Virus record (IMG/VR): IMGVR_UViG_3300020190_000109
Location: 1 to 44,347 of that record
Origin: a virus
Direction: 5' to 3' (one strand)
Length of the DNA stretch: 44,347 nt
How positions within the stretch are numbered: the first letter of the stretch is position 1; the number at the start of each line of letters is the position of its first letter. The notes under the pieces are model-generated. The model saw only the letters and a list, made by a program, of their open reading frames with translations. It had not been told where the DNA came from and did no database searches. Both the position numbers and the translations under genes were made by a program. Shown here piece after piece: positions 24,026-43,113 of this stretch.

Positions 24026-25696
24026 TTAGACGTTACCGGTGAAAGGAAGTGACAGGTAGCCGAGCTTCATGCCTGCAACTAGGTCAGCAGCGCGGACCTT
24101 GATGGAGGTAGAAGTGGCGTTGTTGTTGCCGATTTCGAAGTAGAAGCCGTCGTTGTTGGGTGAAGCAACGGTGCCGCTGTCGGGAAGCTGGAAGTCGGTG
24201 TCGACGAATACGATCAGGTTACCAACACCAACCTTGAAGGAAGGAACGGTGAGGGTTACGAGACCGTCGACTGCACCGCTGATATCGTCGGCGAGGATGG
24301 TGTAGCTGTTACGGCCAACCTTCCAATCGTTAACGGCATCAACAGCTGCATCTAAGTCAGCAAGTGCGCCCTGGACATCAGCAGCATCGATTACGGCTAG
24401 GTTGGTATCATCGAAGCTGATAGCGGTAGCAGCATGTGCACCTTCAGCATCGGTGATGTGGGCGTAGAGGGCGGCATCTAGGTCAGCAATGGCGTTCTGT
24501 ACTTCAGAGGCATCAACGTACTGGAGACCAGCATCGTTGAAGCTGATTGCTGTAGCAGCATGGGCGCCTTCGGCATCAGTGATGTGAGCATAAAGAGCAG
24601 CGTCGAGGTCAGCAATAGCATTCTGAACTTCATCAGCGTCAACATACTGTAGACCGGCATCAGCAAAGCTGATTGCGGTTGCAGCGTGTGCACCAACAGC
24701 CTGATCCTTGTGAGCCTGTAGAGCAACGTCTAGATCAGCGATGGCTTCCTGAACGTCATCAGCATCAGTGTTGTCCAGACCAGCAGCAGCAAAGCTGATG
24801 GCGCTAGCATCGTGAGCATCGGTGGCGTTGGTGATGTGGGCATTGAGGGCTGCATCGAGGTCAGCAATTGCTTCCTGAACATCATCAGCGTCGGTGTGAG
24901 CGAGACCAGCAGCAATGAAGCTGATTGCAGAGGCGTCGTGAGCGTCAACAGCGTCATCTAAGTGGTCCTGTAGAGCGCTACCGGCTGAACCTAAAGATGC
25001 AGCTAGTGCATCTAGAGCATCAGCAACGGTTGTGGGATCTGGATCTTCCCAGTCAGCAGCAACGGCAGGGGTGTAAGCAACGGAACCAGTGATGGTGCCG
25101 GAAGCGTTGATGTCAACAACGGCTAGATCGTTAACTTGGAGGTCAACGAGTGCACCCAGGCTGACGCCGTCAGCCTGAACGAAAGAGGCAAGGAACTTGT
25201 CGTTGGCTTCATCCCAGACTAGACCAGCGAAGTCACGCTTGGCGCCAGCAGCTGCAACGTTACCACGTTCAATTACGAAACCAGCATAACCGCTGGGTAG
25301 AGCAACACCAGCAGCGTTGAGGTCAGCGCGGTTGAGCTGGATTAGCTTGTCAGCGATTTCAACAACGGTGGAGTTAACGGTGGTGGTAGTGCCGTTGACG
25401 GTCAGGTCACCGGTGATTACAACGTTGTTTGAGAAGGTACGGTTACCGGCAATGGTAGCCTTGAGGTCTAGACCGTTAGCGCCAACTTCTAGAGCATTAG
25501 CAGAAGCTAGCTTGATACCAAGAGCGTTGGTAGCAATTTCTAGACCCTTGTTAGCTGCTAGGTTTAGCTTGAGGTCATTGTTGACGCCGTCGAGAACGAT
25601 TGCACCACCGGAATTAACAACATCAGCATTGAACAGTGAAGCCTTTACGCTATTAGCGCGTAAAGACTTATAAGCAAACGCCTGATTAAGAGACAT
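24026..25696 (-). CDS. Fibre-like virion protein with five 42-residue repeats
   Basis: The start is ATG at 25696, behind GGGGAGGAG, giving 556 residues beginning 'MSLNQAFAYKSLRANSVK'. Residues about 90-120 have the phage fibre signature 'VVITGDLTVNGTTTTVNST', common in fibres of T4-like marine phages. Five tandem 42-residue units follow (see repeat feature), each with 'A.AISF..AGL..' and 'DVQ.AIADLDAAL.AH'. The C-terminal domain is beta-rich, ending 'MKLGYLSLPFTGNV'. The repeats probably build a trimeric shaft. DNA is clearly GC-richer than neighbouring genes, with G/C-ending codons like the capsid gene, suggesting high expression. It is its own transcript, between a leader of about 160 bases and a strong terminator. 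Confidence 0.72.
   Translation of the reverse strand: MSLNQAFAYKSLRANSVKASLFNADVVNSGGAIVLDGVNNDLKLNLAANKGLEIATNALGIKLASANALEVGANGLDLKATIAGNRTFSNNVVITGDLTVNGTTTTVNSTVVEIADKLIQLNRADLNAAGVALPSGYAGFVIERGNVAAAGAKRDFAGLVWDEANDKFLASFVQADGVSLGALVDLQVNDLAVVDINASGTITGSVAYTPAVAADWEDPDPTTVADALDALAASLGSAGSALQDHLDDAVDAHDASAISFIAAGLAHTDADDVQEAIADLDAALNAHITNATDAHDASAISFAAAGLDNTDADDVQEAIADLDVALQAHKDQAVGAHAATAISFADAGLQYVDADEVQNAIADLDAALYAHITDAEGAHAATAISFNDAGLQYVDASEVQNAIADLDAALYAHITDAEGAHAATAISFDDTNLAVIDAADVQGALADLDAAVDAVNDWKVGRNSYTILADDISGAVDGLVTLTVPSFKVGVGNLIVFVDTDFQLPDSGTVASPNNDGFYFEIGNNNATSTSIKVRAADLVAGMKLGYLSLPFTGNV
24317..24943 (-). repeat. Five tandem 126-bp coding repeats in the fibre gene
   Basis: Five in-frame units of 42 codons encode 'AHDASAISF' or 'AHAATAISF' starts and 'EVQNAIADLDAALYAHITD'-type ends. 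Units 3 and 4 are nearly identical in protein and units 1 and 2 are close to each other. A degenerate sixth copy may precede unit 1. The array is protein-driven, because synonymous codon differences separate the units. Confidence 0.85.
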
Positions 25697-25854
25697 TTGT
25701 TTATTCTCCTCCCCTTTACGGGATTTAAGCGGGCAAGATTTGAACACCCACCCGGGTGATCGACTCTAATTATTCTAAGTGTACAACTATCATGACATAG
25801 AACTTTGCCTAGATCTAAACAAAATTCTACACCATAATTGGTTATCTGGCTTAG
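25697..25854 (-). promoter_or_regulatory. Leader/promoter region of the fibre repeat gene
   Basis: This 158-base gap contains no convincing gene. It holds a CACCCGGGTG palindrome near 25748-25757 and AT-rich boxes (TAGAAT-like near 25775 on the minus strand), consistent with a dedicated promoter for the highly expressed fibre gene. The -35/-10 assignment is uncertain. Confidence 0.35.
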
Positions 25855-27002: not shown

Positions 27003-29240
27003 TTAACTCCAACCAGTTCCACTAGGTGCAACTGCACCAGGCTCAAGCAACCATACACTTATAAAACAAAATGAATTAGGATTAGAACCAGAAGAATTTG
27101 TAGTAATTTTATTACCTCTTCTAACACCAACTGTATAGTTAATGGTAACTATACCCCCATCGCCTACAGTATCATTTGTCATTGCTCCGATAACAGTCCA
27201 TTGGTCACTAACTGAAATTGTCCACTCAACATCAATTAAATTATCACCTGGGGGTGGAGGACCTTTATCAAATCTAGTTGAAAGTACTTTAAAAACAGAT
27301 AGTCTAGTGTAACCCTGTAGCTGTTCTCCCCAGTATTCAACTGGGTGCGAAGCTGGGTGCGATACTTCCTGGATACTAGGGTAATTATCTCGTTTATACG
27401 TTGATAAGCTATCTGCTATATTTGCTCTACTAACTGTTAATCCAGCTGTACCGTCAACCAATCCGTCGGCTAGTGCGGCCCTATCAACATAGGTTCCAAG
27501 GTACTTGTCGGTATTTGCAACCCACCTTAAGTAACCACGTTGTGTTGCAGTACCGTCTTGCCAAGACGTTGCATCCCAGTTAACGTCACCACCATAAGGG
27601 TGGTTGTTAAACGTCCTGATAACCCAGGCCCAATCCCTGGTTCCATTCTGTTTTATATCAGATACAACAAATTCAGGTATTCCTCCAGAGTAGGTAGTAT
27701 CCCCGATACTACCTCCCTCGTACATACCTGCAGAAATTAGCCATCCATGTGATTGAGGGGCTTTGATGCCTTCACCAATTAGGCGTGGGTTAAATGAATC
27801 TCTAGCAAAAGTTCCAGTTAAATCCCCAGCTAAAACCCTAGGTATATACTTACCCGTCGTACCCCCTGAGGGTAGAAAAGCATGATAGCCATCTAAAGTA
27901 TCGGCATTAATTCCAGAATCATCGGGCGGAGCAATATTATGATAACTTTCTCGAGCATGAAGATCATCTAGCTTGTCAGCATTGATACCCTCTTCGGGAC
28001 CTCCGCCACTAAATCGATAAACACCGTGAGTTTTATCTACTACTAGAGTACTTTGGGCTACATTTGTAACAGTAACAACTAGCACATACAGATTAGCTCT
28101 AGGTCCCTTTTGAGCGGTAGTAAGAGTTAGAACTTTATTACTACCGCTATCGGTATCTGTACCACTACCTGTAAAGGCTGCCAGCACACTTTCATTAGCA
28201 GTAATTGCAGTTTTAACTGCTGTGCGTACGTCTTCTAATGTTGGGTTTGTTGTACTAATATTTGCCGTAACATTGGTACCAACTTGTGTGCCGTCAGGGC
28301 CGTAAAGTTTAAGTGTAACCACATCATTCTGTTTAGGGCTACCGCTAAAAGTAATAGCAGCTGTTGCTGCAATTTCCTGACCACGAGTTAGCAGAGTTGA
28401 TGCAGTGGCTACATGCCCTAAACTTTTATCAACACCATCGAGTGTATCTGCGTTTAGCCCTGAATATAGTGCAGGTGCCTTTCCCTGATAAGTTTCTCGA
28501 GCATGAAGATCATCTAGCTTGTCAGCATTGATACCCTCTTCGGGACCTCCGCCTTTAAATCGATAGATGCCATGAGGAGTTTTATCTACGTAAAGGTTGC
28601 TTTGTGCTCCCTTTGTAATACTAACAACTAGCAAATACAGATTAGCTCTAGGTCCCTTTTGAGCGGTAGTAAGAGTTAGAACTTTATTACTACCGCTATC
28701 GCTATCTGCACCATTATTTGCAAAGGCTGCCAGCACACTTGCATTAGCACCAATTGCAGTTTTAACTGCTGTGCATACGTCTTCTAATGTTGGGTTTGTT
28801 GTACTAATATTTGCTACAACCTCGTTACCGATTTGTGTGCCGTCAGGGCCGTAAAGTTTAAGTTTAACCGTGTCACCTTGTTTAGGGCTACCGCTAAAAG
28901 TAATAGCAGCTGTTGCAGCAGTACCATCTGTACTATTGAAGTTTAGTGCACCCTCTACATGCCCTAAACTTTTATCAACACCATCAAGTGTATCTGCATT
29001 TAGTCCTGAATAAACTGCAGGGGCCTTTCCCTGGTAGACTTGCTTGGCGTGATAGCCATCAAGCATGTCTGCATTCATGTAACCTGAGGCAGCATCTGTA
29101 GGTAGATCTGCAGACGGATCCCCAGCCAAAGTATCAACTACAGAGGCATCATGGCCCTGGCCAATGCCGTGAACGCGCTTTGTAGCTCCACCGCTACGTA
29201 CTTTCTTCTGTAGGTGGTTAATAAACGATAGTAAATCCAT
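27003..29240 (-). CDS. Tail fibre-like protein with duplicated 182-residue blocks
   Basis: In this 745-residue protein the N-terminal part has the fibre motif 'NADTLDGVDKS' and 'NADMLDGYHAK', repeated as 'INADKLDDLHARE' and 'GINADTLDGYHAF'. This 'NADtLDG.ha' motif is common in tail fibre and adsorption proteins of T4-like and aquatic phages. Between motifs are beta domains with 'TAAITFSGSPKQGDTVKLKLYGPDG' (start of each unit, duplicated). The C-terminal 200 residues are a distinct beta-rich head that ends near 'SFCFISVWLLEPGAVAPSG', a plausible receptor-binding domain. It directly follows the portal gene, an unusual place for a fibre gene. Confidence 0.65.
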   Translation of the reverse strand: MDLLSFINHLQKKVRSGGATKRVHGIGQGHDASVVDTLAGDPSADLPTDAASGYMNADMLDGYHAKQVYQGKAPAVYSGLNADTLDGVDKSLGHVEGALNFNSTDGTAATAAITFSGSPKQGDTVKLKLYGPDGTQIGNEVVANISTTNPTLEDVCTAVKTAIGANASVLAAFANNGADSDSGSNKVLTLTTAQKGPRANLYLLVVSITKGAQSNLYVDKTPHGIYRFKGGGPEEGINADKLDDLHARETYQGKAPALYSGLNADTLDGVDKSLGHVATASTLLTRGQEIAATAAITFSGSPKQNDVVTLKLYGPDGTQVGTNVTANISTTNPTLEDVRTAVKTAITANESVLAAFTGSGTDTDSGSNKVLTLTTAQKGPRANLYVLVVTVTNVAQSTLVVDKTHGVYRFSGGGPEEGINADKLDDLHARESYHNIAPPDDSGINADTLDGYHAFLPSGGTTGKYIPRVLAGDLTGTFARDSFNPRLIGEGIKAPQSHGWLISAGMYEGGSIGDTTYSGGIPEFVVSDIKQNGTRDWAWVIRTFNNHPYGGDVNWDATSWQDGTATQRGYLRWVANTDKYLGTYVDRAALADGLVDGTAGLTVSRANIADSLSTYKRDNYPSIQEVSHPASHPVEYWGEQLQGYTRLSVFKVLSTRFDKGPPPPGDNLIDVEWTISVSDQWTVIGAMTNDTVGDGGIVTINYTVGVRRGNKITTNSSGSNPNSFCFISVWLLEPGAVAPSGTGWS
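27941..29032 (-). repeat. 546-bp tandem duplication in the fibre-like gene
   Basis: Two adjacent copies (27941-28486 and 28487-29032) share long identical blocks at a constant offset of 546 bases (182 codons, in frame), such as the stretch beginning TCGAGCATGAAGATCATC. A degenerate third copy of the block start is visible from about 29033. Near-identity at the DNA level points to recent in-frame duplication, with room for recombination that changes fibre length. Confidence 0.85.
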
Positions 29241-30956
29241 CTACTTATCCGCCTCTGGAGTTTCAGACTCTACAACAGAATTTTCAGATTCCTGGGGTTT
29301 TGGGTTACCAGACTTGATGGTTGCCATGTTCTGGCGATGTGCATGCTTGGCACTCATGACCCGAACATCATGATCACGCTGAGCTTTGTCCCGCTCAAGA
29401 GCCTGCTTTTCCATCATTTCTCTGCGCTTGAGGGCTAACTCAGCCTTCTTGTCTGCAAGCTGCTTTTCCTTCAGATCGTGGGCAGCACCAGCGTTATAAG
29501 CTACCTGCGCCTCTGAACCCTTCGCCTTGACCATGGCAGCCTGAGCCTTGATGCGGTCGTTAACAACCTTGTCAGCGGGCGCAAGAAGAAGCCTGTGGTG
29601 GTCTTCTTCAGACAGAGCAGGCTTGATATCCTTGCTAGGAAGACCAAACATCTCACGTACTTCATTGATGTCATCTTCATCAGAACGGCTGAGGTAACCG
29701 TTACTTACAAGCTTGTCGAAGATTGTGGCCATAGTCTGAGCAGCTGAAGGATCGTAGGGATCAATTACAAACTCACCCGGACGGGTATCCTTGAAGTTGA
29801 GTTGAATCATTCGACCAATAACTTGTTTACAGAATGGCTGAACAATCTCTCGAGCCAAGGCCTTGACCATCAACCTGAATGTATTCCAGTGGGTTTGTCC
29901 TGGGTTTGAGAGCCCCGCAGAGCCCTCTTCAAGAAGTAGCTGTGGAATCAACAAGCCCCTGAAAATAGAACGGTTGTAATAGTTGATGGCATCCAAGAAC
30001 ACCGACCCAAAGTTATTGCCAGTGGTCAACGTATCAATCTTGATATCATCCTGCATTGAAGGTCGCTGGAATACAAGAGCCGTACCACGATGCATATTGC
30101 TCATGGCTGATTCTGCAGCTTCCCTAATAGTCATGTTACGAGTTTTACCAGTTGCAGGATCACTAATCAAGTCTGGGGTAACGCCTGCAGGAACAACTGC
30201 GTAAGCTACTGGCGTACCGTAACGGTCTAGAGCTACGTTGTACATCTCAAGAACGATGTCCTTGAGGAGCCAGTTCTTGTAAACCCTCTGAATAGCACTG
30301 GTGCCTGTATAGATACCAGAACGCTTACCGTGAATAGTCAAGCAAATCTTGTTCAGGGGCAAGTTGTTGTAGGTAGCCCCATTAACTCCAATTTGCCACA
30401 CACCCGTATGAGAAATAGTTGCTGGTGGTTGGTAGTAAGGATTATCCAAAGGGCCCTCTACGAGGCGTCCATGTACGTTAGGAACAATAAGAACAGATGC
30501 GGGATGATAGTTGATCAGCTCATCCACCTGAATCTTACCGTCTACAAGCTTCCAGAGAATTTCAGAAACCGAGTATCCAAAGGTCAGGCTTGATTCAACA
30601 AGCTCACCGATTGCGTACTCGATAGTGGTTTCCATCTCACCAATAGCCTTACGCACAAACTTTTGAATCTCTGGGTCGGGATGACGGTATTCCTGAAGCG
30701 ATGCAATAAGTGCAAGCTTCATGAACTCAATTCCCGTCCCAACAGTTTCGTCAGTTTTTGCAGCCCGCTCAAATTCAATTAGCCGGCTGGTGTCTTGCGG
30801 TGTAAGGTACTGGGTAAGCATGCCGGGACCGCGAGACAGGGTCGAACCGACCTGTCTCGCAGAACCCCGAGGAAGCCGGTCATGCTCCACAGCTGCTGCG
30901 ACTTTCTCTGCCTCAGCAACTACGGGGTTGGACCCCGACCGTCTCCGTGTAGCCAT
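29241..30956 (-). CDS. Portal protein (Mu gp29 / DUF935-like)
   Basis: This 571-residue protein has the central portal pattern of the Mu gp29/DUF935 group. 'DETVGTGIEFMKLALIAS' and 'YAIGELVESSLTFGYSVSEILWK' (wing) are followed by 'NKICLTIHGKRSGIYTGTSAIQRVY', 'DRYGTPVAYAVVPAG' and 'EEGSAGLSNPGQTHW'. The C-terminus is a long charged helix (Lys/Glu/Ala-rich, 'DKKAELALKRREMMEKQ') typical of the portal barrel or crown. It forms the dodecameric DNA gate at one capsid vertex. The start has AAGGG upstream and lies 28 bases after the frameshifted chaperone stop. The large subunit of terminase, which usually precedes the portal, is not in the window. Confidence 0.85.
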   Translation of the reverse strand: MATRRRSGSNPVVAEAEKVAAAVEHDRLPRGSARQVGSTLSRGPGMLTQYLTPQDTSRLIEFERAAKTDETVGTGIEFMKLALIASLQEYRHPDPEIQKFVRKAIGEMETTIEYAIGELVESSLTFGYSVSEILWKLVDGKIQVDELINYHPASVLIVPNVHGRLVEGPLDNPYYQPPATISHTGVWQIGVNGATYNNLPLNKICLTIHGKRSGIYTGTSAIQRVYKNWLLKDIVLEMYNVALDRYGTPVAYAVVPAGVTPDLISDPATGKTRNMTIREAAESAMSNMHRGTALVFQRPSMQDDIKIDTLTTGNNFGSVFLDAINYYNRSIFRGLLIPQLLLEEGSAGLSNPGQTHWNTFRLMVKALAREIVQPFCKQVIGRMIQLNFKDTRPGEFVIDPYDPSAAQTMATIFDKLVSNGYLSRSDEDDINEVREMFGLPSKDIKPALSEEDHHRLLLAPADKVVNDRIKAQAAMVKAKGSEAQVAYNAGAAHDLKEKQLADKKAELALKRREMMEKQALERDKAQRDHDVRVMSAKHAHRQNMATIKSGNPKPQESENSVVESETPEADK

Positions 30957-32062: not shown

Positions 32063-35000
32063 ATGAACAGGATCGCTCAAAGCAACTATGAGAGTTTGCA
32101 GGCTGCACAAGCCAAGCTAACTCTTGCTGAGCTTATCAACAAAAAGATTACAGCACTATTTGTTGGCTTGCAAGATGGCCATATAGACCTAAACGGGGTA
32201 GACCCTAAAGAAAGCCCTACAGATTCATATGCGACTTTACTAAAAATAAGGCGCGTTATGCGTCAAACAATGGGTCTAGCTTATCAAGATGACTTTATTC
32301 AAGATTTACGAGAACTAGTCAAACCTGAAAATATTAAATTATTTGTTCAAGGTCTGATAACTGAAGGATTTATTTCTGAAAACTCTGATGACATAAACTT
32401 TCTTATTAATGAGCTTGAAAGTAAAAATATTGAAGATGTTTTAACTTTTACTCGAGAACAAGCTCGAAACAGCCTATTTGGTACTTTAGCTAAATTCCAG
32501 GAAACAGACAGCGATACTCTATACGACGAAATTGGTTTTCATTTTGGTCGCCCTAACATACTGGATGAAAGGGGATTTCTTACCAGTGAGAAAGTAAATC
32601 GTTTAGTAAACACCCTAAAACAACACTTAGGTGGTGCAACTGCTAGAGGTTACGGTTTAATAACTGGAGCTACTGTAGGACAAGCAGCACTACTAAACAT
32701 ACTCACAGCTTCAAAGTCTGTTGATGTATCTATGTTCCAGCTAGAACATAGTTTAATCCTGTCTGCCCTTTATTACAAAAAACAACAATTTAGTATGCTG
32801 AATCGCATGTCAACAGAACATCGCACAATCAATGTGCTTCTTGCTGCAGCGCATAATCCTAACGGTGGTGAGGGTTATGATCCGTACTTCAACTGGATAA
32901 ACCAAGCCGGTAAAGCTTTACTAGGTGATAGTGTATCTTTTCATGAAGTAATGGGCAGTTATGCACACGAAAAGTTTATTGCAACGGATTTACCATCTTG
33001 GGTTATCCAGTTAAAGTACGGGTCATATGTGGTTGGTAACTCTATAAAAAAATCTACAGTTATGATTGGGTCCTTTAACATGACCAGGGGTGCTCTGGGA
33101 AATATTGTTGATAATCACGGAGCCCTTTCTAATGCTAGACCATATAACTTTGAGCTTGGATTCAATATTGGGTATGAGCTAGTTCGTTATGGCGGTATGA
33201 AGTTTAGTACATTTGCAAAAATAATTGGAGAAGCCCGCGGATACGTAGATAGAGTAATACAAAATAAATTTCCAAATATAAACAATCATCCTGAACACAT
33301 ACTTAGTGGTCCAGAAACTTATACACGACTACAAAAAGCTCTTGGGCTTGGTAGCTCAAGTCTTGGTAATAAAGTTGATGCATTCTTTATGCTTAACGTT
33401 ATTACAGATCGAGGGATGCTGGATGTTGATGGTAAGGGTGAAAAAGGTAGAGGTTTATTCCACACTATTCATGACAAACTAAGTGCCAGTAAAGATAGCA
33501 CCATCACAATATTTGTAACTGAGGGATTTAGAGATATCAGATCTTCTGATATATCAAATGGTGAGGGTGTTGAGCAAAGTAAGGCTATGCAAGCCTTACG
33601 TCAACTTGAACATGAATTCGAAGGTAGATTTAAGATTGTTGAAGTACGTCAACATGTACATGCAAAGTCTTTCATGGTGTTTCACGATGGTATAAACAAC
33701 AACAAAGGTGGTTTTGAATTAATTGCAGGGTCAGCCAACGTTAGTGCTGAATCTTTAGGGGGTAGTACTACAGAACTTGGCCTTTACCTAGGAAGTCAAC
33801 ACTTTGAAGATGACTCGTTTTTAAGGCAACAAGCAGAAAACATTTTAAGTAACCTGTGGATGCATTCACATCGTGCAGGTAAGGGCATAAACCCACTTAA
33901 AAACCTAAACATGTCTAGCGCTGATAGAATCATGCTAGAACTTAAAAAACGACTTAACCCATCTCTTTCTCGATTAATTACAGTAAGTGAAAACCGACAA
34001 GGCGTAGGAAGCCTTATAAGCCTAAGCATAAGTATTAAAGATCCCAGTACTGGAAAAATATTTGAAGTAAAAGATGCGGTTAAACTAAGCATTCAACAAT
34101 ACAACAGTGATCCAAACAGGCTATTTATTCCTGAATTACAAAAAGTAATCGACCCAGTTATAGGCCAAGATAAAAATTCTACAGTCAAGTACGGAACAGG
34201 TACTGAGCGCGGGCATTTGCGTGTTGTTGAGTACACTGCAGGTGAAGTTGTTGCTGCAGCTCTTGAAGAAATTTCAATAGAGCTCGAAAAATCTACACTA
34301 AATCTGCTAAGCCGGTATGGAGATAGATTACTACTTACCACCAGTGGTCAAAGTTTCTTTAAACGTCAACTACGTCGTATGGGTAGTGAAATAGGTCTAG
34401 AAATTTTACGTCACCAGGAAGGGTTGCCTATTGGGTCTCGTACAAACGAACAAGCTCGACAATTACAAAGACTAATTTTTGGTATTGAGTACAAGGACCG
34501 CAACCTTATTGATGCCCTTCAATTAGACCCTTCAATGGCTTTAGACACTGACTCAGCTTTTAGCCTACACCAACTTGCCAGGATGTTTGGCGGAGATGAG
34601 ACTAACGTTATCCCACTACTTAGCCTAAGAGAAGAAAACCGCCCAATACTTTCACCGATGTCAATAGAGCGTAGTTTTGAAAAGTTTGCAGCTTTACAGG
34701 AAGAAATGCTTGGTCTTAACAAAAAGCACGTAGCCGGTAATGCACCCAGTGAAGTTATTAGGGTAAAAGACGGAAAACTAGTTGTAGAGCCACTACTATT
34801 CACCCTACTCGCAGAAAGCTTATCTTGGGACAAGCCTGCAAAAATACTACTAGCAGATGCTTTTAATTACCTAACAGCTACAAATTACGATGACTCTACA
34901 CAAGCTGTAATGTCCTTGATGAACCCTGCAAAATTAGCGCAGTGGGCACAACGTTTACAGAACATGCTTGGTAGTGACGTAGGCTACATGCATGTAAATC

Positions 35001-38000
35001 CCGGTAGCCCAGCAGAAAAGAACTTCAGACGAGTCGAAATGCCGTTTGGGCCGCCCAGACCAGACGGAAAACCTCGTATGTCTACAGAATTTAGATTCTT
35101 GCTTCTCTGGGGGTTAAACGAGCAAACATATGTACAAGCCGATGCATTCCGCGGAGCAAACGTTGGATACAGGACACAAATGTCCTTCCAGGTATATACC
35201 AGAGAAGCTTTAAGTGGTGCAGATGAAGTAGCTAGCAGTATGTTTGATGGCCGAGTAAAACTTGGCCCAGACGGTAACTGGATGGTATTTGACAACCGTA
35301 CAAACAGTTACATAGAAGCAGACCCAAATAAACCTCTGCTAGAAGTTACCCATCAAGAAAGACATATCCACGGACCTGTAGTGATTGTAAATGGTAAGAG
35401 AGAGGTCCTAACCATGGCCAATCCTATCTACGGTCAACGCGGAGCCCGTGTAATTATTCACGGTATCGTACAAGAAACTGACGCTGGGGGCAGGCAGGTA
35501 TTCAAAGCAGACGCTGAAGTTTTACAGCCTGTAAGCAGTTCAATGCGTATGCTATCTCAAACCATGAAAATGGTATTTACAGGCTTGGGTAGCTTTGTAG
35601 ATGAAACAGGAAAACGTCGAAGCTTCTTTACAGATCTTGTTGAATCAATCAACAAAACATTTTTTAGTGAAAACTACTTTAAAAAACAAAATAGGGAAGC
35701 AGCTGATTATTTTGGAAAAGCTTTTAGGGGTTTAGGGCTAGCTAGTGACACAAACCAACAAATCATGGATGCTCAAAAGCTCCACGGTGTTGTGGGTGAG
35801 AGCATAATCAAGTCGGGTGTAGCCTTGTTGCACACCGGCTACACCCTACTAGAAGGTTACTACGACGGTGGTGCTTGGTCTGATAGTTTCCTGGAAATGT
35901 TTGAAACCAGGAAAGGTAGAGAACGATTTAGCACAATGCTTGAAAGTATCAAGCAAAGTTTAGATAAAAAGGGTTCTGTTAAGACTTCAGATGTACGCAA
36001 GCGTTATATGCTTGACAGCATTGAACAACTACTGGGTTCTGATAATAGTCTAGAAACCGGTATCAAAGAAGCTCTAGCTAATGATAATCAAGCTCTCAAA
36101 AAAGTTGTAGAGTCGATACGAAAAGGTGAGCTTAAAAACATCAGTGATCCATTTGCAAAGATGGTTATTGCTGCAGCAGCTGCGTATCACATTTATAACG
36201 GTATACACCATTCTGAGATGCTTAATGATGCTATGCGCGAAACTACGAAGAGGATGGCAGGTACCTGGGGTGGTGTAGATTCCCGTGTAATATTTGGTGC
36301 GGCAATTCCAATTGTTATGAGGGACGACATTAGTGTAGCTCAGTTCCCCATGTCTAATAGGCAGAGTGCAATTTTCCATACAAACTACGTTGGAAACCAC
36401 TCCCAAATAATGCTTAAAGCTATATCTACAAACCGAGAAACAATTCGTCGTCGAGAAGTAGTATCTGAACTTTTTGCTATTGGGTATTTAGGCGGTACTT
36501 CTATTGTTGCTTCTAACTACGCTAAAAAGTCATTACAACATGGAGGTAAATCTGTTGATATAGGTCTACTTCAAAAAGAAAACATACAACTTGCAGGTGT
36601 ACACTTTGAACCTTTTGCTTATACCTTTACTGGTATGAGTTCTGAGTCTGAAGGAGCGCTATCTAGAATTTCTGAAGTTGTCCGTAGGCTTACATATGAA
36701 GATTTAAGTGATAAAGATTTACAAGCAGTACAGGAAGAATTTAAAAAGAGCCTGTCAATAATTAAAAAAGATTACACCACCCACAGTGGAAATACAAATA
36801 CTCGTACAAGTCCACAAAGAGAAGAAAATCGTATTCAAAGCTTCAAGCTACAGCATAAAGCTCGTTTAGGTGGCGCTGTAATTTATGTACCCGTTCTTAG
36901 TTTTGATCGTGAACATAACTCGTTTACCCATGAAATTGCTGATCTCTCTTATGAAAAGATTTCCTTACCCTCGCCAGATGCAGCTGTAAAACTACAAAAC
37001 TTTGATGACTACGTTGGTGATATTCTCAACCTATCTCACGAAATCCAACGTGAAAACATAGCTATTAGAAACATTATCAAGATGGCAGAAATTTTTGGTG
37101 GGCACGTATCTAGTGCAGCCAGAGATCAATATGAACAATTTTTACTAAAAGTAGAAACTTTAAAGGCCAAAATTAGAGAAGCAAGTACTACAGATATTCA
37201 AAAAACAATATCTGCACTAAGTGGTGTTCAGGGCTTTGCACAGATTGCTAACACATTTGGTAGCTTTGATGGATTAGTATTTTCAGAAGATAAACAGGGT
37301 AGAAAAATAAGCGTAGATAACGTTATAGTCATGGGCGATGAAGTCATGGCTGCTGTAACAAAAGAATCTCTAACAGCGCTAAGAATTGTCAAAAAGTTTG
37401 TTAGCCAAGTTGCACTAGGTAAACAATTAAATGTTAGTGCGGATGATCCCACAGGTAATAGTCCAGTACTAAAACTTAAAGGTAAAAAAGTTATTGTACG
37501 GCGTGGAAAAGAAATCCGGTACACATTTGAAAGCTTAAACTTTGGGGAAGATTCTTATTTAAGTACAGCTACAGACACCTACGATGGAAACCATTCAGAT
37601 GTACGCGGAGTATCTGCAGTATTAAAACAAATTGGTGTTGCTTATGATCTTCAACAAAGTGAAAGAACAGGATTTTTGAAATTAATTCAAGAAAAGAAAA
37701 AATTACAAAAACTGCGTGTAGAAAACAATAAAGAAAAAAATAGACGTAATAATACTCTAGTAGATAAAATACAAGATCAAGAACAACTTATTGAAAAATT
37801 ATCTTCAAAACACTTTTACGAATCTGGTCTAAGGGGTGTATTTAGTCTAAAAGTACAACAACACGCTTTAAAAATGCAACTTAATAAAATAGAAAATCAA
37901 ACTGGTGTAAACGCTATTGAACTACAAGAAGCTCGACTAAAGCATGGCCTTGTTTCTGAACGATTAGAAGTACTAGCTTTTACAAAAGATAACCTTACAA

Positions 38001-41000
38001 CTCTACATAGTAAAATTCGACAAGTAAAAGAAAACCTAAACAATAAATCTATATCTGTTGCAGATAAAAAAGAATACAAAAAAATGCTTGCATTCTTAAA
38101 AGGACAGCAGCATAGAATAAACGCTGGATTAGTCTATACATCCACAGAACTAATGTCGCAGGTTTCCTATGAAGATATTGATCATGCATTTATGGCAGCT
38201 GGAATTGACTTAGACCATGAAGTAACTCATGCAATTGATAATAAGTCAATGAATAAAACCTTAAGCACAAATGCACTTGTAGAGCTTCTTCAACTTGGTC
38301 ATGCTGCTAGACAAGCTGGTTTAGCAGTAGCAGGTCTTCGTGCAGGCGGCCCTGTAGGTAACTTTGGACCTGTCGGTTATTTTGCTATGAACGTACGTGA
38401 CTTTAACGCACACATGCGTAGAATAGATTCAAACTTTAACTTGGACCCTTATATGAACCGTCGAGCCATGTTCTTGCATATTTCAGGTATGGCATTAAAC
38501 CTTGGTGACTTTGACGGCGATAACATTGTTATCAGTCAAATAAAACGATACACATTTTTAAAATCTCTAGATTCTCTAACGCACGGTGGTATTGGTGCCG
38601 TAGACAGTTACCTTGCTGATGGTGTTGAAGGTCTACGTAAAAAGAATGTTTCTGAAAAAACTATTGAAGCCTTGTTCAGGGAAATATCTGGTAACAGGCT
38701 TGGTGGTTATGAAAATCTAAGTTTACTCGAAGAAATGCATAAACTAGAGCAGGAAATTTATCGCCGTAATGGAAATTTATTAGTCGAGCAGACAGAACGA
38801 TACCTTGGGCTTCACAAAGGTGAACTAAGAAACAAAATCCAGACAGAAGAAGCTTTTAAAGATTTATGGCATGACGCTCAAGGTAATTCAACAGCTGAAG
38901 AACTTTTGTTATTTAAGTATGCTTCACAACTTAATATGTTTGCAAATGATATGTTTGGTCATGCTGAACAAAAAGCTACTGGTGCCATAAATGCATACTT
39001 GAAAAAATCTAATAATTCAGTATATGTAAGTGCTGAAGAAATTGATAGAAGCGCCTTTGAAAAGTTTTTACAAAGTGAAGAGGGACAAGCATTTCACAAT
39101 GATTTAAAAGGCTGGTATAAAGGTCAAAGCACAGCAATGGTTAACAAGTATTTAGAAAATATACTTGGTACTGAAGTTGATGTTAATACAGTTCTTAAAT
39201 ACGGTGTACAAGTTGCGTTTGCTTCTACAAAGTTAATCGGTAACTGGACAAACATTCAAACAATGCAGCAGTCCATGAACTCCTATAGCCGTTATGAATC
39301 TTACAACCACATGCAGAGGATGAAAACAGCAGTTATTGCTGCTGCAGAATCTCGTGGTGATAGTGCTGAGTCAATTGAACAATTTAAAAACAATGTAGAA
39401 AAACTTCAGAATGAAAGCCTTGCCCATAATGACGAAATACATCAAAGACTTTCAGGCTACATGTTGAATTTACAGCAAGCAACACGTGACGCGATTAAAG
39501 AAAAATCTGCGCTTGCTCTACGCGATACTTCACAAGAATCTGTATTTGAATCCATGGTCAAAGATAATGTACTTATTAAAGCTATTGATAAGAGCTATAC
39601 CCTTATTTATGGTCGATCAATCTTTGATGTGGACAATAGTTACGATTCAGAAATGAGCCGAGAGAGTGACCTCGCTAAAGTCCTGACAACCCTTAATGTT
39701 GATGAAGCTATAAAAATTGGCTTTACCGAGGGTGGTCAGATGCAAGCTGAAATCACCAGTGCTTTATCAAGTCACGAGCATTATATGGCTGTTGTAGAGC
39801 ATATGATTTTGCCTCACCTTGAAGCTATGGCAAAAATGCAAAAGGACTTTTTAAGTAAAGAAGTTCCAAACCAACTTGCTGTTATGAGCAATGCTGAAAA
39901 GCTAAAGTTCTTAATGAGTGATGAGTCTGGGATATCTGCTAGCGGGCGAACCACAGCACTCTTAATGGCTCACTCGATGTGGAGAGATTATGAAAATTAC
40001 TCCGCTATGAAAACTTATACAAAGTCCCTTATGATGAAAGATGCTTCAAACTTTGAAAATGCTCGTAATAGCTTAGACGACCACTTAAAACTTGTTGTAT
40101 TTTATGAAGCAACAAAGGGTGGAAAACTTAATGAAGCGGGTATTGATAGATTACTTGGAGACATTGTTTCATCATATGTATCAAGTGACTACGGACTTGA
40201 CAGATTAGTATCAGACGCAAGAAGCATTGACTCTACTGGGTACTTTGCAGATAGCATGACAACCCTATTAGCGAGCTATATGGGTGGTCAAAACATAGAT
40301 AGCAGGCTTCAAGCACTACAAAGAAACAATCAAGTTCAGTACCAGATTCTTGCGGAAATGGAATACGAGCTAGCAGACGCTGTACGTGCAAATCCATCTG
40401 TTCAAGTTAGCTCACAAGTAGAAACAAAAGAGGCACTTGAACATCTTAAAAAAGCTGCAGCTCCCGCAGATCCTAATAAACCCAGTGCAGATCCATCAAA
40501 AGGTCCTTTAGCAACTGCATCACAAGCAGATGGTACACAAACTCCAGAAGAAGTGAAAGATGCTGCCTTACAAGATCCTTCAGTAAATCGTTTAGAAAAA
40601 CAAATGTCAGAAGTTAAAGATATTGCTCAGCACAGAGCCTTTAAACAAGAATTAGATGTATCCAGAGAAATAAAAGCCTACCGACAGGGTTTTGGTAGTG
40701 CACTTGGACACATTGCCCATCAAGGACTTATGGCCCTTATTCCTAGCTTGTCAAAGAGCATGGGAATATTCGGTGCAGGTGCAAGTGTTTTCGGTATGAG
40801 CCAGGTAGCCCAAGCTCAACAACTTGTACACGGTACTAGGGAAGGTGAAGATTCAAACACCACAACTGTATTCAACAAGATGAAAGATTACTTGATGACT
40901 ACAGCACTTATGTGGGAACCTCTTATGTCTTTACGAGCTCTACCTGCAATGGTTAACTCGCAAGAGCAAGCCCTAGCAAGTGCTGCAGGAGTTATTATCC

Positions 41001-41563
41001 CGCTTGTAGTTGGTACTGCAGCTGCTTCTAAAACACTACAAGCTACAAATGTAGTGGGATTCGGCCCTAGAGCTCCATTAGGTGCTCTAGCCCGTGCAAG
41101 CTCTATTTCTTCGCTTATAGGTATGATGGCCGCGGGTCACACAGTCAATAAGTTTATTGAAAATGCTATAAGACTAAGACACCATAACAGAGAATCTGAG
41201 TTGTTAATGCACCATCAGATTGCTGAAGACGTTAATCTGGCAAAAGCTATTGAAGCTGATTTCTCAGAACTTCCAGAACTCGTCTCAAATAAACTTGAAG
41301 ATCCATCAATACGTATGGTTGAGTGGGATGGCACTGTAATTGATACAGACGATACGCTTAAAGCTACAGACTTCAGTGAAGGTCTGTACCTTAATGACGG
41401 AACTTCTGTTGCTGGTGACATAGTAACCGCATACGGAGACAATACTCCAGAATCAATGAACATGCCTCAAGACATGAATGAAAGTAGTGCGGATCGTATT
41501 GCAAGAGAACAGGGTAATGTAACCTCATACCTTGAACGGTTTAGTAGTTGGTTTAAACGTTAG
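32063..41563 (+). CDS. Giant virion protein with N-terminal PLD-like domain and RNA-polymerase-like DFDGD motif (3166 aa)
   Basis: One uninterrupted frame of 3166 residues. Residues about 190-620 carry two phospholipase D-superfamily motifs: H302-x-K304-x4-D309 with G336-S-F-N339, and H533-x-K535...D542 with G556-S-A-N559. Core strands read 'LLNILTASKSVDVSMFQLE'. Residues about 1860-1990 are coiled coil. At 2149-2153 lies DFDGD, in 'FLHISGMALNLGDFDGDNI', matching the Mg-binding loop of beta-prime-type two-barrel RNA polymerases (as in YonO and crAss-phage virion polymerases). 'GLRAGGPVGNFGPVGYF' precedes it. Residues about 2885-3030 contain hydrophobic Gly/Ala-rich stretches. The size and gene position fit a packaged, ejected protein; tape measure is an alternative. 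Enzymatic function is inferred. Confidence 0.7.
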   Translation: MNRIAQSNYESLQAAQAKLTLAELINKKITALFVGLQDGHIDLNGVDPKESPTDSYATLLKIRRVMRQTMGLAYQDDFIQDLRELVKPENIKLFVQGLITEGFISENSDDINFLINELESKNIEDVLTFTREQARNSLFGTLAKFQETDSDTLYDEIGFHFGRPNILDERGFLTSEKVNRLVNTLKQHLGGATARGYGLITGATVGQAALLNILTASKSVDVSMFQLEHSLILSALYYKKQQFSMLNRMSTEHRTINVLLAAAHNPNGGEGYDPYFNWINQAGKALLGDSVSFHEVMGSYAHEKFIATDLPSWVIQLKYGSYVVGNSIKKSTVMIGSFNMTRGALGNIVDNHGALSNARPYNFELGFNIGYELVRYGGMKFSTFAKIIGEARGYVDRVIQNKFPNINNHPEHILSGPETYTRLQKALGLGSSSLGNKVDAFFMLNVITDRGMLDVDGKGEKGRGLFHTIHDKLSASKDSTITIFVTEGFRDIRSSDISNGEGVEQSKAMQALRQLEHEFEGRFKIVEVRQHVHAKSFMVFHDGINNNKGGFELIAGSANVSAESLGGSTTELGLYLGSQHFEDDSFLRQQAENILSNLWMHSHRAGKGINPLKNLNMSSADRIMLELKKRLNPSLSRLITVSENRQGVGSLISLSISIKDPSTGKIFEVKDAVKLSIQQYNSDPNRLFIPELQKVIDPVIGQDKNSTVKYGTGTERGHLRVVEYTAGEVVAAALEEISIELEKSTLNLLSRYGDRLLLTTSGQSFFKRQLRRMGSEIGLEILRHQEGLPIGSRTNEQARQLQRLIFGIEYKDRNLIDALQLDPSMALDTDSAFSLHQLARMFGGDETNVIPLLSLREENRPILSPMSIERSFEKFAALQEEMLGLNKKHVAGNAPSEVIRVKDGKLVVEPLLFTLLAESLSWDKPAKILLADAFNYLTATNYDDSTQAVMSLMNPAKLAQWAQRLQNMLGSDVGYMHVNPGSPAEKNFRRVEMPFGPPRPDGKPRMSTEFRFLLLWGLNEQTYVQADAFRGANVGYRTQMSFQVYTREALSGADEVASSMFDGRVKLGPDGNWMVFDNRTNSYIEADPNKPLLEVTHQERHIHGPVVIVNGKREVLTMANPIYGQRGARVIIHGIVQETDAGGRQVFKADAEVLQPVSSSMRMLSQTMKMVFTGLGSFVDETGKRRSFFTDLVESINKTFFSENYFKKQNREAADYFGKAFRGLGLASDTNQQIMDAQKLHGVVGESIIKSGVALLHTGYTLLEGYYDGGAWSDSFLEMFETRKGRERFSTMLESIKQSLDKKGSVKTSDVRKRYMLDSIEQLLGSDNSLETGIKEALANDNQALKKVVESIRKGELKNISDPFAKMVIAAAAAYHIYNGIHHSEMLNDAMRETTKRMAGTWGGVDSRVIFGAAIPIVMRDDISVAQFPMSNRQSAIFHTNYVGNHSQIMLKAISTNRETIRRREVVSELFAIGYLGGTSIVASNYAKKSLQHGGKSVDIGLLQKENIQLAGVHFEPFAYTFTGMSSESEGALSRISEVVRRLTYEDLSDKDLQAVQEEFKKSLSIIKKDYTTHSGNTNTRTSPQREENRIQSFKLQHKARLGGAVIYVPVLSFDREHNSFTHEIADLSYEKISLPSPDAAVKLQNFDDYVGDILNLSHEIQRENIAIRNIIKMAEIFGGHVSSAARDQYEQFLLKVETLKAKIREASTTDIQKTISALSGVQGFAQIANTFGSFDGLVFSEDKQGRKISVDNVIVMGDEVMAAVTKESLTALRIVKKFVSQVALGKQLNVSADDPTGNSPVLKLKGKKVIVRRGKEIRYTFESLNFGEDSYLSTATDTYDGNHSDVRGVSAVLKQIGVAYDLQQSERTGFLKLIQEKKKLQKLRVENNKEKNRRNNTLVDKIQDQEQLIEKLSSKHFYESGLRGVFSLKVQQHALKMQLNKIENQTGVNAIELQEARLKHGLVSERLEVLAFTKDNLTTLHSKIRQVKENLNNKSISVADKKEYKKMLAFLKGQQHRINAGLVYTSTELMSQVSYEDIDHAFMAAGIDLDHEVTHAIDNKSMNKTLSTNALVELLQLGHAARQAGLAVAGLRAGGPVGNFGPVGYFAMNVRDFNAHMRRIDSNFNLDPYMNRRAMFLHISGMALNLGDFDGDNIVISQIKRYTFLKSLDSLTHGGIGAVDSYLADGVEGLRKKNVSEKTIEALFREISGNRLGGYENLSLLEEMHKLEQEIYRRNGNLLVEQTERYLGLHKGELRNKIQTEEAFKDLWHDAQGNSTAEELLLFKYASQLNMFANDMFGHAEQKATGAINAYLKKSNNSVYVSAEEIDRSAFEKFLQSEEGQAFHNDLKGWYKGQSTAMVNKYLENILGTEVDVNTVLKYGVQVAFASTKLIGNWTNIQTMQQSMNSYSRYESYNHMQRMKTAVIAAAESRGDSAESIEQFKNNVEKLQNESLAHNDEIHQRLSGYMLNLQQATRDAIKEKSALALRDTSQESVFESMVKDNVLIKAIDKSYTLIYGRSIFDVDNSYDSEMSRESDLAKVLTTLNVDEAIKIGFTEGGQMQAEITSALSSHEHYMAVVEHMILPHLEAMAKMQKDFLSKEVPNQLAVMSNAEKLKFLMSDESGISASGRTTALLMAHSMWRDYENYSAMKTYTKSLMMKDASNFENARNSLDDHLKLVVFYEATKGGKLNEAGIDRLLGDIVSSYVSSDYGLDRLVSDARSIDSTGYFADSMTTLLASYMGGQNIDSRLQALQRNNQVQYQILAEMEYELADAVRANPSVQVSSQVETKEALEHLKKAAAPADPNKPSADPSKGPLATASQADGTQTPEEVKDAALQDPSVNRLEKQMSEVKDIAQHRAFKQELDVSREIKAYRQGFGSALGHIAHQGLMALIPSLSKSMGIFGAGASVFGMSQVAQAQQLVHGTREGEDSNTTTVFNKMKDYLMTTALMWEPLMSLRALPAMVNSQEQALASAAGVIIPLVVGTAAASKTLQATNVVGFGPRAPLGALARASSISSLIGMMAAGHTVNKFIENAIRLRHHNRESELLMHHQIAEDVNLAKAIEADFSELPELVSNKLEDPSIRMVEWDGTVIDTDDTLKATDFSEGLYLNDGTSVAGDIVTAYGDNTPESMNMPQDMNESSADRIAREQGNVTSYLERFSSWFKR

Positions 41564-41905: not shown

Positions 41906-42634
41906 TTATATCCAAATAATCGACAATAGTTTAGTCTGAGTGACGATTTTTGGATCTTTTGGACCAGGTATTATTAGTTTTTTCCACGGGTAGTAAGCTA
42001 CTACATCTTCAGTCCACAAGATTTTTCCAAGTTTATTTTTAAACTGCGCCTGAATAAATAAGTAGTCAACTCCATTACTAAAAAACTTTGGATGATACTT
42101 TGTATTAGGCCTAGAAATATCTAGATCGACACAGAGGCTAAATTCTCCGTCAGAAAACCTAGGTGATATTCCCAAGACCTTGATAGGGTACTTCTTACGA
42201 AACTGTAAATCATTCATAAATAGGTTCAAAGCTTTAGATTCATTTTCTACAGCTACTTCATGTTCTTGTTTCTTTATATGGGTATAAGCCACATCACCGT
42301 AAAACTGTGCAACCTTGATTCCTAGTAAAACCCCGTTCATACCTAAAGCGTGATTTTTATTAGGAGGAAATAGATCGTTTACTAAAGCTTTTTCATTGAC
42401 AGTACATAACACATGAGCTGTCCAGCTAGATTTATTCTTTACAAGCTTATAAACCCTATAGTTCGTAATATAAGCCGTACTTCTGGTAATAATTGTCTCA
42501 GAAATAAGTTGACCATTATAAACAAGAGTCTTGGCATCAACCAAGACTCTTGTTTGCTGTTCAACCCCATTTTTAAGGGCTCCCAGAACCGCTAAATCAG
42601 GCGTTTCACCGGACCCAGCGGAAGATATCTCCAT
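41906..42634 (-). CDS. FlgT N-terminal-like / LPP20-operon-like protein
   Basis: This 242-residue protein starts at ATG 42634, overlapping the upstream gene's TAA (TAATG), so translation is coupled. Residues about 18-80 read 'ALKNGVEQQTRVLVDAKTLVYNGQLISETIITRSTAYITNYRVYK' in short pieces: 'GVEQQTRVLVDAKTL', 'NGQLISETIITRSTAYI' and 'HVLCTVNEKALVNDL'. This matches the FlgT N-terminal / H-ring-type domain ('A...A....G..v...t.v.ng.l..d.i...s.gyi..y.v......v.v.v.a.v'). The C-terminal half is unique and aromatic. No signal peptide is visible, unlike periplasmic FlgT. Either it is cytoplasmic or it depends on the upstream secreted partner. Confidence 0.5.
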   Translation of the reverse strand: MEISSAGSGETPDLAVLGALKNGVEQQTRVLVDAKTLVYNGQLISETIITRSTAYITNYRVYKLVKNKSSWTAHVLCTVNEKALVNDLFPPNKNHALGMNGVLLGIKVAQFYGDVAYTHIKKQEHEVAVENESKALNLFMNDLQFRKKYPIKVLGISPRFSDGEFSLCVDLDISRPNTKYHPKFFSNGVDYLFIQAQFKNKLGKILWTEDVVAYYPWKKLIIPGPKDPKIVTQTKLLSIIWI

Positions 42635-43113
42635 TACTGGGAAATCTCGTCCTGAAGCCTATAAAAGGCCTTTTCCGGCATTACCCACTGCACCCAGACA
42701 GAATACCTCACACCCTCAGAAGTTTGACGGCTTTCCCAGTAAACATTTTTCTGGCGTAGAGACTTCAAGATAGCTGCGGCACTCCACGTAATCTGCTCGT
42801 TAACCTGCTCGACACTGTTCTTGGTGTTTAGCTGCGACTGGGTCTTTACAGTGGTTTGTAGCTGTTCTGCAAGTTGTGCAAGCGCGTAGGCTTTTGCAAG
42901 TCGAACTCCCGACTCTGCGGAGAGTGCGCTAGTGGATGTAGTAATAATCGTGATAAATCCTGGGATATCTTCTTGGCTAGATACCCACTCGGGGCGGCTA
43001 CCGGAATTATCAGTTGCGCGGTCAAGTACTGGTTCCCGATATGCTGCGGCTCTTACAGTTCCGGCACACCCGGACATAAGTGCTGCGGCCAACAACGCAT
43101 TAAGTATTTTCAT
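42634..43113 (-). CDS. Predicted outer-membrane lipoprotein, LPP20/FlgP-like
   Basis: This 159-residue protein has a short positively charged N-terminus, a hydrophobic core and a lipobox with Cys16 ('NALLAAALMSGCAG'), so it should be lipidated. The mature part has 'SRPEWVSSQEDIPGFITII', then an Ala-rich amphipathic helix ('RLAKAYALAQLAEQLQTTV') and a 'YWESRQTSEGVRYSVWVQW' strand pair. This matches the LPP20/FlgP pattern ('.PeWv.........g.G.........A...A...l...l.......W.d..G.yy.la.l.k'). FlgP forms an outer-membrane-associated ring with FlgT in sheathed flagella. In a phage, a surface lipoprotein could mediate superinfection exclusion or another envelope change; that is inference. Confidence 0.6.
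   Translation of the reverse strand: MKILNALLAAALMSGCAGTVRAAAYREPVLDRATDNSGSRPEWVSSQEDIPGFITIITTSTSALSAESGVRLAKAYALAQLAEQLQTTVKTQSQLNTKNSVEQVNEQITWSAAAILKSLRQKNVYWESRQTSEGVRYSVWVQWVMPEKAFYRLQDEISQ

Follow-up and report, generated by a model that had tools for sequence, protein, structure and literature searches.

The virus record IMGVR_UViG_3300020190_000109 is a 44,347-base fragment, which was analysed over its whole length (the window). It carries a giant open reading frame, P0001, at 32063-41563 on the plus strand; features within this frame are given below by residue and by plus-strand position. A first-pass annotation had pointed out this frame, and it is real: it runs uninterrupted for 3166 codons as a single reading frame, and its start codon falls where a homologue, L002, begins. 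The divergent neighbour encodes the portal protein (29241-30956, minus strand), and the minus-strand genes around it form the morphogenesis cluster of a contractile-tail phage, with portal, major head protein, tail sheath and baseplate. The giant gene adjoins or sits near the portal gene in each of the 11 loci with flank coverage, usually on the opposite strand. Among the other minus-strand genes are fibre-like open reading frames with internal repeats (GINADTLDGVDKSLGHV; HDASAISFAAAGLDNTDADDVQEAIADLDAAL) at 27003-29240 and 24026-25747, and, near the 3' end of the giant gene, a small open reading frame (42634-43113) whose product starts with MKILNALLAAALMSGCAG, a lipoprotein-type signal.

Does the giant protein stand alone? 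Direct BLAST with the window protein against phages (50,697 phage records) and plasmids gave no match, and homologues were found by way of the neighbouring portal gene and conserved motifs. On IMG/VR contig 3300042453_004886 the portal shares 69% identity with the window portal, and its gene lies beside a gene for a giant protein of 3304 amino acids that is about 36% identical to the window protein and reads SGMALNLGDFDGD. The window portal is also similar to its counterparts in Microcystis phage Ma-LMM01 and in a Microcoleus phage. Close to the Ma-LMM01 portal is gp080 (YP_851094), annotated as a 'hypothetical protein' of 3562 amino acids, which carries the motifs HPKFFVSD, GTMN and NLGDFDGD. 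It is about 15% identical to the window protein, with no direct BLAST match between them, yet gp080 and its MaMV-type homologues share with it the family, the portal-side position, the phospholipase D (PLD) motifs and the DFDGD sequence. Scans guided by the motifs added more lineages, with proteins of 3.7-4.7 thousand amino acids. The giant frame is thus no singleton; it belongs to a conserved family present in Ma-LMM01-type cyanobacterial viruses, with members in Ma-LMM01, a Microcoleus phage and about ten IMG/VR lineages, which are 3.2-4.7 thousand amino acids long, 14-43% identical and interrupted by huge variable inserts. A search with the core of the protein in 84,980 bacterial and archaeal species genomes confirmed no relative. 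Between two Ma-LMM01-like copies the gene is under purifying selection (dN/dS 0.14 overall), and the ratio around DFDGD, 0.09, is the lowest among the stretches compared.

The amino-terminal part has two lobes. PLD-like lobe 1 (residues 198-375, 32654-33187) has G198, A216, Q226, H302, K304, N339, N362 and E364 invariant in the complete homologues, and contains, by homologue alignment, a first HKD motif, HEKFIATD (residues 302-309, 32966-32989; H302-x-K304-x4-D309), and a GSFN motif (residues 336-339, 33068-33079). Lobe 2 (residues 440-600, 33380-33862), delimited with 11 aligned homologues, holds the second H-x-K, HAK (residues 533-535, 33659-33667), invariant in all complete homologues, together with GSAN (residues 556-559, 33728-33739); the D expected at x4 is missing. 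The two H-x-K and the two GS-x-N motifs are present in every homologue whose N-terminus is intact, and H302, K304, N339, E364, H533, K535, S557 and N559 are conserved across complete homologues. The two PLD motif pairs announced by the first-pass annotation for the first 620 residues are therefore present and conserved at 14-43% identity, the second one without its D.

A profile search, proposed earlier as a check on this domain, bears the assignment out. With the N-terminal 679 amino acids searched, Pfam PLDc_2 (PF13091) matches window residues 213-347 at 27.9 bits (E 2.3e-6), just above the gathering cut-off of 27 bits, and the homologues L002, L016 and L020 also exceed it, at 52.3, 31.3 and 27.8 bits. 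An AlphaFold2 model of the window PLD part is of low confidence (pLDDT 38, from a shallow alignment), but its best Foldseek matches, though none is individually significant, are PLD-superfamily structures in 11 cases out of 11, including NucT, Zucchini, PLD, Nuc, FAM83 and phosphatidylserine synthase. Because the catalytic residues are conserved, PLDc_2 scores above cut-off in four lineages and even a poor model ranks PLD structures best, the superfamily assignment is secure, and the N-terminal part is almost certainly a two-HKD enzyme of this superfamily, as judged from its sequence. It shares two HxK and two GSxN motifs with the PLDc_2 members (Nuc, NucT, Zucchini, phosphatidylserine synthase), but differs from them in being fused to a giant phage protein and in lacking the usual D of the second motif. 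As a guess, its substrate would be nucleic acid rather than lipid, making it a nuclease more likely than a lipase.

The second prominent motif is DFDGD at residues 2149-2153 (38507-38521), a candidate catalytic Mg-binding loop. It stands in the context 'GMALNLGDFDGDNIVIS', as the first-pass annotation said, and the record contains no other exact GAYTTYGAYGGNGAY site. All distinct homologues have it in identical form, except one with DYDGD, and its three aspartates are invariant; loss of the motif among homologues had been named beforehand as a ground for rejecting the polymerase claim, which has thus survived. Hydrophobic, strand-like stretches flank it (e.g. PISFLTMNLG-DFDGD-QYTTIFS). At a distance of 56-65 residues upstream lies a conserved R-x-(x)-P-x-G motif, RAGGPVG in the window protein (residues 2093-2099, 38339-38359), a candidate counterpart of NRAPT in beta' and RNPVMG in gp96 of Thermus phage P23-45. 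In the window protein, DFDGD is followed after about 320 residues by a Q-x-x-R-D-x-I-K-x-K motif, QQATRDAIKEK (residues 2471-2481, 39473-39505), with R, D, I and the two K invariant in all aligned homologues; it might mark the site of a bridge helix or trigger loop. Every N-terminally complete homologue has a further block, K-x(n)-QR-x-x-N-x-x-G (residues 957-970, 34931-34972), which lies behind the PLD part and ahead of the polymerase-like part and is invariant in the family; it might correspond to the 'GDKMAGRHGNKG' loop of beta, but its spacing does not match. An EF-hand, which calls for G at position 6, a hydrophobic residue at 8 and E/D at 12 of the loop, was also considered for DFDGD and ruled out, as positions 6, 8 and 12 misfit: position 6 is N, V, T, P, S or Q, position 12 is I, F, S or H, and no homologue has an acid at 12.

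How does this loop compare with those of known RNA polymerases? In hhalign comparisons with P23-45 gp96, YonO of SPbeta and Escherichia coli beta', the top alignment of the DFDGD segment profile falls on the catalytic loop each time. The gp96 match, over 51 columns and at P 0.0013, is the best among the known polymerases tested and also brings R-x-P-x-x-G into register; YonO follows with P 0.0025, segment against segment, a score reached by none of 150 column shuffles, and beta' with P 0.018. Much of this signal depends on the motif itself, as controls show. When DFDGD is masked, no similarity to YonO remains, and the gp96 score is reached in four of 100 controls with the motif moved and in 11 of 100 with the motif planted elsewhere; the R-x-(x)-P-x-G motif adds to the gp96 match over the motif alone at P of about 0.04-0.11. 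Similarity to RNA polymerases beyond DxDGD is thus only suggestive. With the long core alignment, single-sequence hhalign against gp96, gp66 of phage phi14:2 and YonO gave no match, and the core matched no RNA polymerase among Pfam, PHROGs, NCBIfam and PDB profiles. The earlier proposal that DFDGD is the loop of beta', YonO and the crAss-like phage polymerases needs amending as well: beta' and gp96 agree with D-[F/Y]-D-G-D, but the YonO loop is D-N-D-G-D, and the crAss-like polymerases compared, which have no profile match to the giant family, almost always have D-F-D-[I/V]-D, with D-Y-D-I-D in one. The polymerase half of that proposal is supported only at the level of the motif, through the invariant aspartates, their beta'- and YonO-like, non-EF-hand context and the profile matches on catalytic loops.

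A second barrel was sought upstream. Residues 1145-1175 (35495-35587) are a tentative candidate for a lysine-bearing barrel segment, with R1162 and K1169; R1162 and K1250, the latter downstream of the segment, are conserved in 12 of 12 sequences, as is K1169 after a small shift of the alignment. The candidate segment has no significant match to rpoB and YonO profiles, and a second barrel with R1162, K1169 and K1250 as its basic residues is a guess. AlphaFold2 applied to the core of homologue L017 (residues 1800-2999, a stretch that probably missed the candidate second barrel) gave a pLDDT of 42 from a shallow alignment, and Foldseek with this model returned coiled-coil noise and no polymerase match. 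As the established PLD part is modelled equally poorly, this outcome is uninformative on the fold and does not count as negative. Residues from roughly 1100 to 2500 may constitute a highly divergent single-chain two-barrel RNA polymerase, and a polymerase identity of the mid-chain region is, on present evidence, moderately probable. Membership of the two-barrel class is not claimed: of its defining features, one, the conserved DxDxD loop, is found here.

Could this be a conserved structural or ejection protein whose PLD domain is active but whose DFDGD loop binds metal in a structural capacity, not as an RNA polymerase active site? This is unlikely, although it is the most serious alternative. 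It accords with the want of significant RNA polymerase similarity beyond the loop and with published Ma-LMM01 transcription data, which require no phage polymerase (PMC5780444). It is harder to reconcile with the misfit of the loop to an EF-hand, with the match of D-[F/Y]-D-G-D between hydrophobic strands to beta', gp96 and gp64, and with three aspartates that stay invariant in a family otherwise 14-43% identical.

Among known systems, the giant protein would work most like P23-45 gp96, a proven virion RNA polymerase fused to a tail tape measure protein (PMC10770324), and more loosely like the crAss-like virion polymerase. With gp96 it shares a giant phage chain, DFDGD, the upstream R-x-P-x-x-G and a membrane segment (PMC10770324). 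The order of parts differs, however: gp96 has the polymerase at its N-terminus and, behind it, a tape measure that includes a metallopeptidase, with no reported PLD, whereas in the window protein the PLD part comes first and the polymerase-like part lies mid-chain. The spacing from R to D also differs, being 56-65 residues in the giant family and about 38 in gp96. The D-[F/Y]-D-G-D loop between two hydrophobic strands is common to the giant family, beta', gp96 and gp64. The crAss-like polymerase phi14:2 gp66, whose role as a virion RNA polymerase is known, and its giant relatives are giant virion proteins with a D-x-D-x-D loop. YonO shows a similar order of motifs, RSP...PIS...DxDGD beside RSPP...PIS...DFDGD in the giant family, but is a single enzyme of about 840 amino acids, in whose sequence no PLD motif or hydrophobic tail was noted. 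The literature searched contains no paper describing a PLD-fused virion RNA polymerase, so that the first-pass remark that no virion polymerase with an N-terminal PLD domain is described holds within it.

The precedent of gp96 raises the prospect that the chain is a tape measure protein fused to polymerase and PLD domains, a version of the polymerase reading in which it would also set tail length. A long helical stretch is predicted at low confidence between the motifs, and no tape measure protein was recognised among the window open reading frames tested, although the tape measure gene may lie outside the window, which is a fragment. The gene sits beside the portal gene, usually on the opposite strand, and not between tube and baseplate genes, and lengths in the family range from 3.2 to 4.7 thousand amino acids, which makes a tape measure role improbable. 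Least credible of all, and very improbable, is a polyvalent protein ejected against the host or its defences, acting chiefly as a PLD nuclease, with a polymerase-like region that is a degenerate, inactive relic: PLD-family nucleases are widespread in phage-host conflict and the family does carry huge variable inserts, but the catalytic aspartates of a relic would drift, yet they are invariant, in the stretch of lowest dN/dS among those compared.

The favoured reading, for which the balance tips slightly, is that of a virion-associated, ejected fusion of a PLD enzyme and a two-barrel RNA polymerase that transcribes the first phage genes, with the PLD part cleaving phosphodiester bonds during entry. 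Its architecture, a giant chain with a polymerase motif and hydrophobic segments, supports a virion polymerase, since it is like that of gp96. A hydrophobic C-terminal segment (residues 2969-2992, 40967-41038) is found in the same relative place in all homologues, which fits an ejected, membrane-contacting protein. A virion location and ejection are suggested by these conserved segments, the portal-side position of the gene and analogy. The protein, its gene being beside that of the portal, would be packaged during assembly and would enter the cell together with the phage DNA, its C-terminal segments serving passage through the envelope; the polymerase-like region would then transcribe the first phage genes, and the PLD domain would serve during entry as a phosphodiesterase, with nucleic acid or lipid as its target. 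It is about as likely as not that Ma-LMM01-type cyanophages and their relatives possess a family of virion RNA polymerases that had gone unrecognised, joined in one ejected chain to a two-HKD PLD enzyme.

The main evidence against a virion polymerase is the published view of Ma-LMM01 transcription. In a transcriptome study, sigma70-like motifs preceded genes of the early, middle and late classes, from which use of the host polymerase was inferred (PMC5780444), and according to the paper on MaMV-DH01 no RNA polymerase is encoded (PMC9927357). These conclusions are based on promoter prediction and annotation, and are therefore unlikely to have detected so divergent a polymerase. If the polymerase part is confirmed, these viruses carry a transcription enzyme of their own, contrary to these publications. 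A freshwater cyanophage group that includes the best-studied Microcystis phage would deliver its own RNA polymerase, with Ma-LMM01-type phages not reliant on the host enzyme only, and the protein would be the first PLD-fused virion polymerase. The way in which Ma-LMM01 operates its three expression classes with host transcription unchanged would become directly testable; a PLD enzyme would be added to the few activities known to be delivered alongside a virion polymerase, and the theme of polymerases fused to ejection proteins, seen in gp96 and the crAss-like phages, would be extended. The cultured model Ma-LMM01, with its gp080, puts tests of a virion polymerase within reach.

Two further observations concern related genomes. 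Directly upstream of the early operon gp063-gp054 of Ma-LMM01 are about 6.7 tandem copies of a 42-bp repeat (L036:43271-43551), which could possibly be a promoter array for an unusual polymerase. Contig 3300042453_004886 encodes two adjacent paralogues of about 1.25 thousand amino acids, 35% identical to each other (L008:4500-8372 and L042:1387-5073; contig positions 109100-112972 and 113555-117121), a pair absent from the nine related genomes searched. One reads RAPQSLP...IDNGDHDGD and the other RAPMKTP...RGDFDGE, with an altered third acid, and by these motifs they look like further two-barrel RNA polymerase candidates, perhaps non-virion ones.
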